This document shows positions 59,194 to 63,813 of a stretch of 64,000 bases of DNA, piece by piece. Positions within the stretch are counted from its first letter, which is position 1; every line of letters begins with the position of its first letter. Below the pieces are notes generated by a model that was not told the origin of the DNA, did not search any database, and was given only the letters and a program-made list of their open reading frames with translations. The DNA is taken from the NCBI GenBank assembly GCA_020444415.1, contig JAHLLA010000001.1, forward strand, positions 434,001 to 498,000. Reading direction: 5' to 3'. Position numbers and translations under genes: made by a program. The stretch is from Bacteroidota bacterium. GTDB taxonomy: Bacteria; Bacteroidota; Bacteroidia; Bacteroidales; F082.

Positions 59194-60978
59194 ATGTCTG
59201 AAAATAAAACACTAAAAGGAGGCGAATTTTTGATTCGCGAAACCAATGCTCAGGATGTTTTTATTCCTGAAGAATTCAATGAAGAACAGCGGATGATCGC
59301 CCAGAGCTTCAAAGAGTTTACGGATACACAGGTGCTCCCACAAATGGAACAACTGGAAAAACACGACCGTGAACTGCTCACAAAAATGTTTAAAGATGCC
59401 GGCGAACTTGGTTTGCTTGGCGTGTCCATTCCTGAAGAATATGGTGGCTTTGGACAAAATTTTGTCACCTCCATGCTGGCGGTTGAAGAAATGGGAAAAG
59501 GATTCAGCTTTGCTGTCGCTTTTTCTGCCCACACCGGAATTGGCACCTTACCCATATTATATTATGGTACGGATGAACAAAAAGAAAAGTACATTCCCAA
59601 ACTGGCATCGGGGGAGTTTATTGGTGCATACTGCCTTACCGAAGCTGATGCTGGCTCTGATGCCAATTCTGGTAAAACCAAAGCCAAATTGAGTGACGAT
59701 GGCAAACACTACATTTTAAATGGTGTTAAAATCTGGATCACCAATGGTGGTGTTGCCGATCTGCTGATCGTTTTTGCAAAAATTGATGATGATAAAAACC
59801 TGAGCGCTTTTATAATTGAATCTGCATATAAGGGCGTTACACTGGGTGCCGACGAAGAAAAAATGGGCATCAAAGGCTCATCTACTGTGCAAGTTTACCT
59901 GGATGATGTGAAAGTCCCCGTTGAAAACCTGCTGGGCGAAAGAAATGGTGGATTCAAAATTGCCCTTAATATCCTGAACCTGGGACGTATTAAGCTGGCA
60001 GGCGCTACCACTGGTGCAGGCAAAGGCACTATTACAAATGCTGTAAACTATGCGAATGAACGCAAGCAATTTGGACAACCCATTGCCAGTTTTGGTGCGA
60101 TCAAGCACAAATTAGCTGAAATGGTGATCCAGAATTTTGCTGCTGAGTCACTTACTTACAGGGCAAGCCAAAATATTGAAGATGCCACGCAATTATTTAT
60201 CGATGAAGGCATGGATAAAAGCAAGGCAACACTTGAAGGCATCAGGCAGTATGCCATTGAAGCGTCCATTGCCAAAGTATTTGGTTCCGAAGCACTGGAT
60301 TATGTTGTGGATGAAGGTGTTCAAATTTACGGTGGTATGGGCTATTCAGCCGAAACACCCGTTGAAAAAGCCTACCGAGACTCCCGTATCAACCGGATAT
60401 TTGAAGGCACCAATGAGATCAACCGGATGGTAATCGTTGGCGAGCTTATTAAAAGAGGGTTGAAAGGTGAAATTGACCTGTTAACACCAGCCAAAGAAGT
60501 AGGCAAAGAGCTCATGGGCATCCCTGATTTTGGCAGTCCGGTTACGGATTATTTCGAGGTAAAGAAGAAAATGATCATCAATTTCAAGAAGAGTATTCTG
60601 ATGGTGGCCGGATCAGCCATTCAAAAATTCATGCAGGATATTTCCAACGAGCAGGAGTTGCTGATCAATGCAGCCAATATGATCATTTGGACTTATGCTG
60701 CTGAATCCATGCTGTTGCGTATTGAAAAACTGAATGGCATGTATGATGAACAAAAGATGAATCTATATAAAGACATACTGGATGTGTATATGTATGATGT
60801 AGCTCATAAAATCAACAAAGAAGGTGTCGATGCTGTAAACGCTTTTGGAACCGGCGATGAAAAACAAGGTATGCTAATGGGCATGAAACGTTTTACAAAA
60901 GCGGCTTCAGTGAACGTGGTAGCTGCCCGTCGCAGGATTGCTGATAAGTTGATTGAAGACAATAAGTATAACTTTTAA
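59194..60978 (+). CDS. Acyl-CoA dehydrogenase, long-chain type with C-terminal extension
   Basis: 594 residues. The core dehydrogenase (about 20-430) has YCLTEADAGSDANSGKT, ILNGVKIWITNGG, ERKQFGQPIASF and VQIYGGMGYSAETPVEKAYRDSRI. The catalytic Glu is in IFEGTNEINRM. A C-terminal helical domain of about 160 residues (435-594) resembles that of VLCAD and ACAD9-type enzymes and may mediate dimerisation or membrane contact. It catalyses the first step of fatty acid beta-oxidation. A palindromic repeat begins four bases after its stop codon. Confidence 0.92.
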   Translation: MSENKTLKGGEFLIRETNAQDVFIPEEFNEEQRMIAQSFKEFTDTQVLPQMEQLEKHDRELLTKMFKDAGELGLLGVSIPEEYGGFGQNFVTSMLAVEEMGKGFSFAVAFSAHTGIGTLPILYYGTDEQKEKYIPKLASGEFIGAYCLTEADAGSDANSGKTKAKLSDDGKHYILNGVKIWITNGGVADLLIVFAKIDDDKNLSAFIIESAYKGVTLGADEEKMGIKGSSTVQVYLDDVKVPVENLLGERNGGFKIALNILNLGRIKLAGATTGAGKGTITNAVNYANERKQFGQPIASFGAIKHKLAEMVIQNFAAESLTYRASQNIEDATQLFIDEGMDKSKATLEGIRQYAIEASIAKVFGSEALDYVVDEGVQIYGGMGYSAETPVEKAYRDSRINRIFEGTNEINRMVIVGELIKRGLKGEIDLLTPAKEVGKELMGIPDFGSPVTDYFEVKKKMIINFKKSILMVAGSAIQKFMQDISNEQELLINAANMIIWTYAAESMLLRIEKLNGMYDEQKMNLYKDILDVYMYDVAHKINKEGVDAVNAFGTGDEKQGMLMGMKRFTKAASVNVVAARRRIADKLIEDNKYNF

Positions 60979-60981
60979 ACT

Positions 60982-61079
60982 GTCATCGCGAACACCGTGG
61001 GAAGGTAAAGAGATGGCGTGAAGCGATCTCAATCAAGAACATCGATGAGATTGCTTCGCACTTCGTGGCTCGCAATGAC
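60982..61079 (+). repeat. Palindromic repeat, copy 1 (98 bp)
   Basis: Begins GTCATCGCGAAC and ends CTCGCAATGAC, with inner arms GCGTGAAGCGATCTC and GAGATTGCTTCGCAC forming an imperfect hairpin. Copy 2 lies at 61403-61500 in the same orientation and has the same length. It directly precedes the GIY-YIG gene. The outer motif matches the kind of GTCATTGCGA...TCGCAATGAC palindrome dispersed in many bacteria. Confidence 0.85.
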
Positions 61080-61091
61080 GATAAAGTAAGT

Positions 61092-61358
61092 ATGGAAAGA
61101 GGTGGACATGTTTATATAATGACAAATAAAATGAACACTGTTCTTTATACAGGTGTTACAAGCGAACTTACAACAAGGGTTTGGCAGCACAAAACCAATG
61201 TTTATCCCGGTTCATTTTCATCTAAATACAAAACACACAAACTTGTTTACTATGAATACTTTGAATTTATTGAAGAAGCTATTGCAAGGGAAAAACAAAT
61301 AAAAGGAGGATCCAGAAAAAAGAAGATTGATTTAATTAATAATTTTAATCCTGAATAG
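61092..61358 (+). CDS. Small GIY-YIG nuclease
   Basis: 88 residues from the ATG at 61092; an in-frame GTG at 61065 lies within the palindrome and is not favoured. A single GIY-YIG domain: HVYIMTNKMNTVLYTGVTSE gives the two tyrosine strands (VYI and YTG), RVWQHK the conserved Arg, EAIAREKQIKGGSRKKKIDLI the catalytic Glu, and a terminal INNFNPE. It has the length of the UPF0213/small GIY-YIG family, whose members occur in many copies and have no settled function. Flanked on both sides by the 98-bp palindrome; with them it makes a module of 421 bp (copy start to copy start) inserted in a fatty acid operon. Confidence 0.88.
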   Translation: MERGGHVYIMTNKMNTVLYTGVTSELTTRVWQHKTNVYPGSFSSKYKTHKLVYYEYFEFIEEAIAREKQIKGGSRKKKIDLINNFNPE

Positions 61359-61402
61359 AGGGATTGGTATGTTGATATTATAAATGAAGAACATTAAAAC
61401 CC

Positions 61403-61500
61403 GTCATCGCGAACATAGCGGGAAGAATCAAGAGATGGCGTGACGCGATCTAAGGTTGAAAACAATTAAGATTGCTTCGCACTTCGTTGTTCGCAATGTC
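61403..61500 (+). repeat. Palindromic repeat, copy 2 (98 bp)
   Basis: Direct copy of 60982-61079. Shared stretches include AAGAGATGGCGTGA, GCGATCT and AGATTGCTTCGCACTTCGT. The right end ATGTC has lost one pair of the palindrome. The following bases GATAA...ATGGAAAGAG also match those after copy 1, so the duplicated unit extends beyond the hairpin. Confidence 0.85.
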
Positions 61501-61512
61501 GATAACTTACAT

Positions 61513-61992
61513 ATGGAAAGAGAAAACAAAGTCCGGAAACTGGCAAAAAACAATTTTCACATGAAATTGTTCATGTTGAAAAATCTGCCTATGGCTTTTC
61601 TGGCAGGACTCAAGGTGACTGAAATCGACCAGACTAAAGCATCCGTAACTGTACCTTATAAATCTCTGAATAAAAACCCATTTAAGTCTATCTATTTCGC
61701 AGTTTTGAGCATGGCAGCCGAACTGGCAACCGGTATACTGGCCATGGCCGCCATCAAAGATTTTTCAACACCAGTTTCCATGCTAGTGTTTGAAATGAAA
61801 GCCAGTTTTCAGAAAAAAGCGAGAACAAAAATCACTTTTAAATGCACCGAAGGAGAAAAAATGATGGATGCCATTAGCAGAAGCATTGAAACCGGAGAAG
61901 GTCAAACTGCGGAGGTTACATCGATAGGCTATGATACAGAAGGCGATGTGGTTGCCGAATTTAAATTTACCTGGACATTTAAACCAAAGTAG
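61513..61992 (+). CDS. DUF4442 / hotdog-fold thioesterase-like protein
   Basis: 159 residues from the ATG at 61513; an internal ATG at 61561 (MKLFMLKNLPMAFLAGLKV) is an alternative and might be the ancestral start. The hotdog block KVTEIDQTKASVTVPYKSLNKNPFKSIYFAVLSMAAELATGILAM (about 35-80) fits DUF4442, a PaaI-related family. PVSMLVFEMKASFQKKARTKITFKC follows. Probably a cytoplasmic acyl-CoA thioesterase or binding protein working with the acyl-CoA ligase 45 bp downstream. The first residues MEREN share the DNA ATGGAAAGAG with the GIY-YIG start, which suggests the upstream element contributed this N-terminus. Confidence 0.78.
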   Translation: MERENKVRKLAKNNFHMKLFMLKNLPMAFLAGLKVTEIDQTKASVTVPYKSLNKNPFKSIYFAVLSMAAELATGILAMAAIKDFSTPVSMLVFEMKASFQKKARTKITFKCTEGEKMMDAISRSIETGEGQTAEVTSIGYDTEGDVVAEFKFTWTFKPK

Positions 61993-62037
61993 AATGAAAT
62001 AAAAAAATTACTAAATTAACCGCTCAATCCAAAAACC

Positions 62038-63813
62038 ATGAAAGTACTCAGAACCTTCGACATTGTAGATAACCTACTTGAGAATTACAAAAAAGACGAT
62101 GCCCTTGCGGTAAAACGTTTTGGCAAATGGGAAAAATTCAGCACGGAAGACTATGCCCACAATGCCAATTTATTCAGTTACGGCCTGTTAGCCATGGGAT
62201 TTAAAAAACAAGATAAAATTATCACGGTTTCTAATAACCGGCCCGAATGGAACTTTATGGATATTGGCATGAGCCAGGTGGGTGTGGTACACGTTCCTGT
62301 CTACCCCACTATTGGAACGGATGAATATGAGCATATCCTGGTTCACTCAGATGCAAGGATCATCATAGTCTCCTCGCAGGAATATTATGAAAAGATCAAA
62401 CCCATTGCCGATCAATCTCCCAACATCGAAAAGATGTATACGATTGACAAGGTAAAAGGCGCGCCCAATTGGGAAGAAATTATAGAACTGGGAAAAAAGA
62501 ATGAAGATAAATTCAAAGAAGAAGTTGTAAAAATTAAAAAAGCCATTCAACCGGATGAGTTGATGTCTATTATTTATACTTCGGGAACAACAGGTCGGTC
62601 AAAAGGCGTAATGTTATGCCACCGGAATTTCATTTCTAATGTGGAAGCCTGTCAGAATATTTTGCCCATCAATGAAACGCATCGTTTTTTGAGTTTTCTA
62701 CCATTGTGTCATGTGTTTGAGCGCATGGTTACCTATTTCTGGCAATACATGGGCGCTTCCGTTTATTATGCCGAGAATTTTGAAACCATCGGAGAAAATA
62801 TGCGGGAAGTAAATCCCCATGGATTTGCTGCTGTTCCGCGCGTTGTAGAAAAGCTCTTCGATAAAATTCTATTGAAAGGAAAAGAACTTACAGGAATTAA
62901 GAAAAGTTTATTCTTCTGGGCGGTAAACCTCGGACTGAGGTATGAATTGAACGGAGCCAATGGCTGGTGGTATGAAACCCAGCTGAAACTGGCCAACAAA
63001 TTAATATTCAGTAAATGGAGAGAAGCGCTAGGAGGAAATGTGTTTATCATCGTGTCAGGTAGTGCGCCTCTGCAACCGCGATTGGCCCGGATTTTCACTT
63101 CTGCCGGATTACCGATACAAGAAGGCTATGGTTTAACAGAAACCTCACCGGTAATTGCCGTGAATCATGCCAAGTATCCTTTGCTGCAATTTGGAACGGT
63201 CGGGCCTATTGTCAACAATATTGAAGTTAAAATTGCTGAAGACGGCGAAATACTAATGCGCGGCCCCAGTTTGATGATGGGTTATTATAAAGATCCTGAA
63301 AAAACGGCTGAAGTGATTGACAAGGAAGGTTGGTTCCATACGGGTGATATAGGAGAAATACACGAACATAATATCCTTCAGATAACCGATAGGAAAAAGG
63401 AGATATTTAAACTGTCAACAGGAAAATATGTAGCACCCCAAATAGTGGAAAATAAGTTCAAAGAATCACAGTTTATTGAACAACTGATGGTGGTAGGTGC
63501 TGGCGAAAAATATGCGGCAGCGATTATTTCTCCTGCATTTGAATATTTACATGGATGGTGTTTTAAAAACGGAATTAAGTTCAGGGATAATGCTGATCTG
63601 ATAAAAAAACCAAAAGTACTTGCCAGATACCAAAAAGAAATCGACAGACTGAATGAAACACTTGGAAGACACAATCAGATTAAAAAATTTGAATTAACAG
63701 GCGACGAATGGTCTCCTATAACCGGTGAATTATCACCAACTCTGAAACTGCGCCGGAAAGAAATTAAAGAAAAATACCGCGCTGAATTCGACAGGTTGTA
63801 TGGTTATGCATAA
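62038..63813 (+). CDS. Long-chain acyl-CoA synthetase (AMP-dependent)
   Basis: 591 residues, ANL superfamily. The P-loop is IIYTSGTTGRSKGVMLCHRNF (about 180-200). FLPLCHVFERMVTYFWQYMG, GSAPLQPRLARIFTSAGLPIQEGYGLTETSPVIA and WFHTGDIGEIHEHNILQITDRKKEIFKLSTGKYVAP are characteristic of FAA1/FadD-like ligases. It activates fatty acids to acyl-CoA for the beta-oxidation genes upstream in the same operon. The C-terminal Lys in SPTLKLRRK is conserved. Confidence 0.92.
   Translation: MKVLRTFDIVDNLLENYKKDDALAVKRFGKWEKFSTEDYAHNANLFSYGLLAMGFKKQDKIITVSNNRPEWNFMDIGMSQVGVVHVPVYPTIGTDEYEHILVHSDARIIIVSSQEYYEKIKPIADQSPNIEKMYTIDKVKGAPNWEEIIELGKKNEDKFKEEVVKIKKAIQPDELMSIIYTSGTTGRSKGVMLCHRNFISNVEACQNILPINETHRFLSFLPLCHVFERMVTYFWQYMGASVYYAENFETIGENMREVNPHGFAAVPRVVEKLFDKILLKGKELTGIKKSLFFWAVNLGLRYELNGANGWWYETQLKLANKLIFSKWREALGGNVFIIVSGSAPLQPRLARIFTSAGLPIQEGYGLTETSPVIAVNHAKYPLLQFGTVGPIVNNIEVKIAEDGEILMRGPSLMMGYYKDPEKTAEVIDKEGWFHTGDIGEIHEHNILQITDRKKEIFKLSTGKYVAPQIVENKFKESQFIEQLMVVGAGEKYAAAIISPAFEYLHGWCFKNGIKFRDNADLIKKPKVLARYQKEIDRLNETLGRHNQIKKFELTGDEWSPITGELSPTLKLRRKEIKEKYRAEFDRLYGYA

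Follow-up and report, generated by a model that had tools for sequence, protein, structure and literature searches.

Within the 64,000-nucleotide stretch of DNA analysed here (the window), a GIY-YIG nuclease gene encoding 88 amino acids (61092-61358, forward strand) lies between two host genes, an acyl-CoA dehydrogenase gene to its left (59194-60978, forward strand) and a DUF4442 gene (PF14539) to its right (61513-61992, forward strand; the start at 61513 is the most likely one). Coordinates and Pfam matches confirm the setting given in a preliminary description of this DNA, which had placed a nuclease unit between the acyl-CoA dehydrogenase and DUF4442 genes, and its account of a GIY-YIG gene between two 98-bp palindromes in the same orientation proved correct down to the coordinates.

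The protein encoded at this locus matches PF01541 with an E-value of 2.5e-13, its sole Pfam match at E 0.001; NCBIfam returned only matches far below the cut-off. Residues Y8, Y19, R29, E67 and N86 are present, and alignment of 55 sequences shows Y8, Y19, G21, R29, H33, A63, E67, K78 and N86 to be invariant; the conserved Tyr, Tyr, Arg, Glu and Asn are the catalytic residues of GIY-YIG nucleases. The structure model (pLDDT 95.5) comprises a bare GIY-YIG domain, from which we infer that any specificity would be read by the catalytic domain itself. By profile and fold, the nearest structures are UPF0213 proteins (PDB 1zg2, 1ywl), with the model fold closest to 1zg2 and then to Slx1 and UvrC domains; the similarity to these single-domain GIY-YIG proteins is only moderate (TM-score 0.57 of query, 29% identity). 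A known defence gene and a phage gene were both considered and set aside, as PADLOC gave no match and neither a phage record nor a PHROG family matches the window protein. Up to nine of the 55 family members weakly match one phage homing-endonuclease family in PHROG.

Inspection of the palindromes revealed that the signal is in their arms, each of which is a hairpin by itself. An arm consists of a (C/T)GTC tag (YGTC), a stem starting with AT and a short tail, and the whole palindrome is a pair of such hairpins with their tags outward, a head-out REP dimer. In the upstream palindrome (60982-61079, forward strand), the outer hairpin (60981-61030, forward; from sequence and hairpin scan) carries the tag TGTC, the stem ATCGC/GCGAT and the tail CTC, and the inner hairpin (61047-61080, reverse; from sequence) carries the tag CGTC, the stem ATTGC/GCAAT and the same tail. 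The downstream palindrome (61403-61500, forward strand) is a direct copy, with an inner hairpin (61402-61452, forward; from sequence and hairpin scan) of tag CGTC and stem ATCGC/GCGAT and an outer hairpin (61468-61501, reverse; from sequence) of stem ATTGC/GCAAT. In this last, right-hand arm the CGTC has decayed to CGAC, so that the YGTC tag is kept in three of the four window arms, all of which have an outer stem of 5-6 bp within a hairpin of 27-44 nt. The two palindromes are identical in 80 of 101 alignment columns, and the direct repeat continues for a further 22 bp (61080-61101, forward strand, into the nuclease start codon; other copy at 61501-61522, into the DUF4442 start codon), with 18 of 22 positions identical between copies, to reach the ATGGAAAGAG start common to the nuclease and DUF4442 genes. 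Searched as a gapped pattern, the palindrome ends occur at only these two places in the window and in none of 100 shuffles; the folds of the whole palindromes are unexceptional (z -1.5 and -0.9). Rfam returned nothing at E values up to 1 when 60500-62100 was searched for known RNA families.

In the window genome, a 3.15-Mb draft in 29 contigs, this palindrome family is low-copy, with one further partial place found by BLAST (C15:61714). Contigs C15 and C18 each carry another family gene, the one on C15 intact (56% identity), the one on C18 broken and distant (34% identity). The C15 copy is also bracketed by two direct palindromes, the sequence of which is unlike that of the window's (GTCACTCTGA...), indicating that enzyme and palindromes go together without a fixed palindrome sequence.

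Association of gene and hairpins across loci and genomes

To place the locus in a wider context, we compared the flanks of 80 family loci, 77 from named genome contigs and three of the window genome, three of the 80 being dropped for flanks that were too short. Upstream and downstream flanks share sequence in 58 of 77 loci; in controls of identical geometry, placed at shifted positions on the contigs of these loci, they do so in 31 of 1055. A set of 131 non-redundant loci, which includes relatives and class members, was derived from 138 by removing two without a match (L113, L114) and five near-duplicates (L063, L092, L094, L117, L158). A GTCAT hairpin was present within 300 nt of the gene both upstream and downstream at 57 of these loci, compared with 9 of the 1152 shifted controls, and on at least one side at 91 loci, compared with 169 controls; the corresponding counts are 71 versus 90 upstream and 77 versus 88 downstream. 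Among the 40 loci without a GTCAT hairpin, 19 still share repeats across the gene at a score of at least 50, several of them with other tags. The phyla represented by labelled loci are Bacteroidota, Bacillota, Chloroflexota, Pseudomonadota, Spirochaetota and several candidate phyla.

The protein is also encoded in 33 records of a plasmid collection, 10 of which were examined. A scan placed YGTC-tagged hairpins within 350 nt of the gene in all 10 named records, and on both sides in eight; the N. gonorrhoeae copy is flanked by dRS3-type CGTC REPs. In the proteobacterial records stems measure 8-10 bp with short loops and a CCA tail is common; in the Novosphingobium and Sphingobium records the stem does not begin with AT. 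The gene and YGTC-tagged hairpins occur together across phyla. On an Azospirillum lipoferum 4B plasmid (L176), the gene splits sufB from sufC within an operon for iron-sulphur assembly and is thus placed inside an operon as it is in the window, and on a Planktothrix agardhii plasmid (L180) it lies between an MmeI-type restriction-modification gene and DISARM drmA.

In the hairpins of the 131 loci, the base before GTC is C in 119, T in 87, A in 7 and G in 6, and the commonest tails (n=219) are CTC (73), CCC (46), CTT (33), CTA (13), CTG (11) and CCA (11). Because the scan was seeded on GTCAT, the tag-side A and T were fixed in advance; their pairing partner was assessed with no selection for pairing, and the gene-flanking hairpins do have complementary AT at stem positions 1-2. 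Examination of 434 GTCAT sites in the flanks found the complement of the site's own five-base stem within 40 nt in 54.8% of cases, versus 5.6% when stems from other loci were tried at the same sites; in shifted regions the two values are 9.3% and 4.3%. Nineteen stem types were distinguished, of which ATTGC is the commonest, and those seen among relatives include ATTGC, ATCCT and ATTCCCGC. The hairpins thus change their stem sequence and yet remain paired.

We next asked how stem type is distributed over a protein tree, built from 119 proteins and 87 columns after leaving out 12 of the 131 loci (stop codons or fewer than 70 amino acids), in which 67 of 116 inner forks are unresolved. The test used 77 of 79 labelled rows, those whose stem class has at least three members. 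Stem class changes 15 times on the tree; 1000 shuffles averaged 27.2 changes and never fell below 22, and with labels shuffled inside phyla the mean is 23.8 and the minimum 18. For Bacteroidota with the window's class there are 10 changes versus 16.4, and for the 19 rows of other phyla 7 versus 8.9, which is not significant (p 0.105). The stem type thus follows the protein tree, clearly so in Bacteroidota. This agreement demonstrates co-inheritance of gene and repeats and is by itself no proof of recognition, since plain linkage of the two can be enough to produce it.

At the genome level, the gene is present at E 1e-10 in 98 of 247 genomes of the class, a total that includes the window genome. 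With GTCATNNNGA...TCNNNATGAC as search pattern, at least three palindromes are found in 53 of the 98 gene-positive and 15 of the 149 gene-negative genomes (Fisher p 7e-14). As the palindromes beside the gene add about two per gene, higher thresholds are also given: at least ten palindromes occur in 25 of 98 versus 6 of 149. A reversed control pattern does not differ between gene-positive and gene-negative genomes (p 0.15), and permuting labels within families gives an expectation of 36.6 against the 48 observed, with none of 20,000 permutations as high. The preliminary description had named, as an outcome that would refute it, palindromes abundant everywhere with no association to the gene; neither these counts nor the comparison of flanks with shifted controls bears that out.

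Eleven genomes without the gene at E 1e-10 have at least five palindromes. A PF01541 search found small GIY-YIG frames (up to 145 amino acids) in seven of these; of the other four, G075, G100 and G224 have nothing but frames of UvrC size or otherwise long ones, and G269 has no match. Other small GIY-YIG genes (89-145 amino acids) in REP-rich genomes lacking the family have a REP beside them in one of 11 cases with complete flanks. Together, these results indicate that palindromes can exist without the family gene and that the association with REPs is not general to small GIY-YIG genes. One of these genomes, G100, has 171 GTCAT-type palindromes and no family gene, its two GIY-YIG matches falling in frames of 609 and 460 amino acids; its palindromes are possibly REPs that outlived their enzyme. 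Contig G194:C1 carries six small GIY-YIG frames (up to 120 amino acids) that the window protein does not find at E 1e-10, and no REPs lie near the four of them with complete flanks.

Gene-borne and solo repeat types were compared by eye in nine genomes, among the matches listed. The gene's repeat type is also among the listed solo palindromes in six of the nine (G082, G118, G141, G248, G280, G305). In G080 and G253 the gene hairpins are of ATCCC types and the solo ones, among the matches listed, mainly ATTGC; the search pattern is unable to find solo copies of these ATCCC types. In G160 the gene has no REP hairpin. A match between solo repeats and the enzyme's own is hence frequent but not settled. 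Family gene copies number at most five per genome among the matches listed, and palindromes can exceed 100. Several REP stem types, partly in mixed dimers, coexist in G248 (ATGTC, ATGCT, ATGCA, ATTCC and ATCCT among others) and in G118, and one interval, G225:C31:267312-274097, holds three GIY-YIG gene copies within 7 kb, one of them with a stop codon.

Unit layout and empty sites

Layout was assessed at 161 loci, comprising the 131 non-redundant loci, the 10 plasmid-collection records and 20 from palindrome-rich or palindrome-listed genomes; the last group is not unbiased, and 17 of its members have an AT-starting hairpin in the stretch examined. The nearest YGTC hairpins lie on both sides of the gene in 76 of the 161, on one side only in 40, and are lacking within 320 nt in 45. 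Tags point outward at 40 of the 76 two-sided loci and inward at 13, the window included, with other arrangements at 23. The commonest two-sided layout is thus REP-gene-REP with tags outward, for which the median unit is 412 bp (quartiles 388-439). A direct repeat across the gene, with near ends within 300 nt on both sides, is present at 74 of 136 loci; identity is 95% or higher in 13 of the 70 direct repeats among the matches listed. Besides the 22-bp run in the window, other loci too have direct repeats that exceed one dimer in length.

The protein family is present in 27 of 60 relatives (E 1e-6). A DUF4442 match was obtained in 25 relatives, and in 23 of these the acyl-CoA dehydrogenase gene lies directly upstream within the stretch examined. 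None of the 23 has the nuclease between the two genes. Conservation of the gene at this locus in relatives lacking the repeats had been put forward beforehand as a possible refutation; its absence in 23 of 23 leaves the interpretation standing. Three congeners were available, two of which (L121, L122) are among the 23 and have short gaps without a YGTC palindrome; the third has no DUF4442 match. At the same junction, examination by eye revealed a solo palindrome of the GTCAT[C/T]GCGA kind in three relatives from two other genera (L125, L128, L129) and one of another kind in two relatives of a further genus. The C15 copy is likewise absent in all four relatives that keep the radical-SAM-tyrS neighbourhood, of 29 relatives' loci examined. 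Measured against an insertion sequence or MITE, which has terminal inverted repeats and a target duplication of fixed length, the family shows inverted REPs with outward tags at 40 of the 76 two-sided loci, and no short target duplication was visible by eye in the two empty-site comparisons. In one MAG, copies at three places (L030, L037, L040) have gene and repeats in common and not the host flanks. Gene and repeats are thus absent from the same junction in relatives, and repeat pairs are also found in places that lack the gene, similar ones standing even at this very junction in two other genera.

Relation to known repeat systems and proposed mechanism

REP-type palindromes are common bacterial intergenic repeats, and their CGTC class has been left without an enzyme; Di Nocera et al. 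(2013; PMC3733652), who found none associated with it, concluded that CGTC REPs "apparently lack a dedicated transposase". Four families are described with a stem of 8-9 bp, a loop of 4-5 nt and an unpaired tail that is mostly CCA; the CGTC tag is often changed to TGTC, the stem begins with AT, the tail is short, and head-to-head dimers predominate (PMC3733652). Its list of CGTC REPs includes A. lipoferum, S. meliloti and Neisseria (dRS3), and these three groups are among our named records with YGTC hairpins beside the gene. The window arms resemble this super-family in the C/TGTC tag, the AT-starting stem, the short tail and the mainly head-to-head dimers. They depart from it in the outer stem, which is shorter, in the inner part, which is longer, and in the tail, which is not CCA; we therefore call them CGTC-like and do not place them in the four families.

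A second comparison is with the REPtron, in which GTAG REPs accompany a RAYT (TnpA-REP) gene. Both systems have a small nuclease-like gene flanked by hairpins, and both combine few gene copies with many repeats; for the GIY-YIG family, hairpins of the gene's own type were seen elsewhere in the genome in six of the nine genomes compared by eye, among the matches listed, and at one further partial place in the window genome. They differ in that the enzyme is a GIY-YIG protein and not an HUH/Y1 tyrosine transposase, that the tag is YGTC and not GTAG, and that the commonest GIY-YIG unit is about 410 bp. The likeness to RAYT elements drawn in the preliminary description thus holds in layout; as the enzyme class was tested and is different, we regard the unit as working like a REPtron and do not file it as a RAYT element.

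Our preferred reading, in which our confidence is evenly balanced, is that the GIY-YIG gene and its palindromes form a REP-associated mobile unit resembling a REPtron, with a bare GIY-YIG nuclease in the place of the tyrosine transposase; cutting and movement are inferred. The nuclease would recognise the hairpin in single-stranded DNA, either on the lagging strand or in incoming DNA, and would nick near the YGTC tag. GIY-YIG enzymes are hydrolytic nucleases, and copies would consequently arise via host repair or template switching. The expected products would be units of about 410 bp that carry the gene, together with repeat pairs lacking it, the latter being non-autonomous copies. The notion of a nuclease-palindrome element, with which the earlier reading began, is supported and largely holds, neither of its refutation tests having refuted it; that the enzyme recognises or spreads the palindrome is an inference. 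Against the mobile-unit reading, no movement was observed and no short target duplication was seen, YGTC hairpins are lacking at 45 of the 161 loci and one-sided at 40, eleven gene-negative genomes have at least five palindromes, and the comparison of solo repeats lowered our confidence in it.

The same data can be read as describing a site-specific nuclease that serves the host, for which REPs are an address for cutting single-stranded DNA, such as incoming transforming DNA, and of which the gene is not a REP spreader. This we consider doubtful, if still a serious contender. Ssn, reportedly the subject of a 2025 study in Nature Communications, is said to be a wide family of small GIY-YIG nucleases whose cuts fall at specific sites in single-stranded DNA; the Neisseria NTS repeat is reportedly its target, in hundreds of copies, with homologs in many bacteria, and Neisseria Ssn is reported to modulate natural transformation through a repeat. 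The dRS3-type CGTC REPs around the N. gonorrhoeae copy fit such a role, as do the few gene copies per genome (at most five among the matches listed) beside palindromes that can exceed 100, and the two genomes in which the solo palindromes among the matches listed differ from the gene's type. A pure host gene, however, need not sit inside its own targets, and its patchy presence (27 of 60 relatives), the empty sites for two copies in one genome and the repeat-bounded copies at different places of one MAG are harder to accommodate.

The direct dimers on both sides of the window gene invite a further explanation, homing into repeats, in which REP dimers would already stand alone in gaps within operons; once the nuclease had cut such a dimer, repair templated by a dimer-flanked copy would bring in the gene and leave direct dimers on both sides. 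Direct repeats across the gene at 74 of 136 loci (13 of 70 at least 95% identical among the matches listed), the similar solo dimers seen by eye at the window junction in two other genera (L125, L128, L129) and the weak matches of up to nine of 55 members to one phage homing-endonuclease family all point this way. Yet the commonest two-sided layout, with one outward-tagged REP per side (40 of 76), needs no pre-existing dimer, and the empty sites of two congeners (L121, L122) have no YGTC palindrome; we think homing improbable. Least credible of all, and very unlikely in our judgement, is that REPs are mere insertion hot spots or intergenic filler in which a small gene happens to land: REPs do occupy many intergenic gaps and some gene copies have none, but this passenger role is at odds with the shifted controls from the same contigs, with the stem-tree agreement and with the finding that, where REP-rich genomes carry other small GIY-YIG genes, just one of the 11 whose flanks are complete has a REP.

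To return to the mobile-unit reading, the small GIY-YIG gene may travel with flanking hairpin repeats in many phyla and may supply the enzyme that the large CGTC REP class was described as lacking. A broader proposal, which we put forward tentatively and with rather less than even confidence, is that CGTC REPs are the spreading form of elements of about 410 bp whose sole gene is a GIY-YIG nuclease. These would constitute a second, independently evolved REP-mobilising system beside RAYTs; it would span many phyla, belong with the smallest self-encoding mobile units, and rely on hydrolytic nicking of single-stranded hairpins and not on transposase chemistry. If the enzyme, whose presumed targets vary along its tree, is indeed the partner, the spread of CGTC REPs would be explained, a set of matched nuclease-hairpin pairs would be at hand for working out recognition, and the REPtron idea would extend to an unrelated nuclease fold. 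Among the matches listed, no title or start of an abstract joins GIY-YIG genes to REP-type repeats, most subscription papers and preprints being outside the scope of the search, and a search on the repeat strings returned, by title, nothing on such repeats. Ssn, reportedly a small GIY-YIG enzyme with a target repeat in hundreds of copies and many bacterial homologs, resembles the family described here, and the Neisseria nucleases may already cover part of the gene-repeat finding. Should that study report flanking repeats, what is new here narrows to the link with CGTC REPs, the make-up of the unit, the empty sites and the agreement between stem and protein.

A different, tRNA-linked arrangement was seen in a distant GIY-YIG subfamily (L003, L116 and L117, at G000:C18, G009:C18 and G002:C302; 32-34% identity). 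L003 and L116 are without REPs; the subfamily lies at a tRNA-Arg(acg) gene, and inspection by eye revealed that part of the tRNA sequence is repeated across the GIY-YIG gene.
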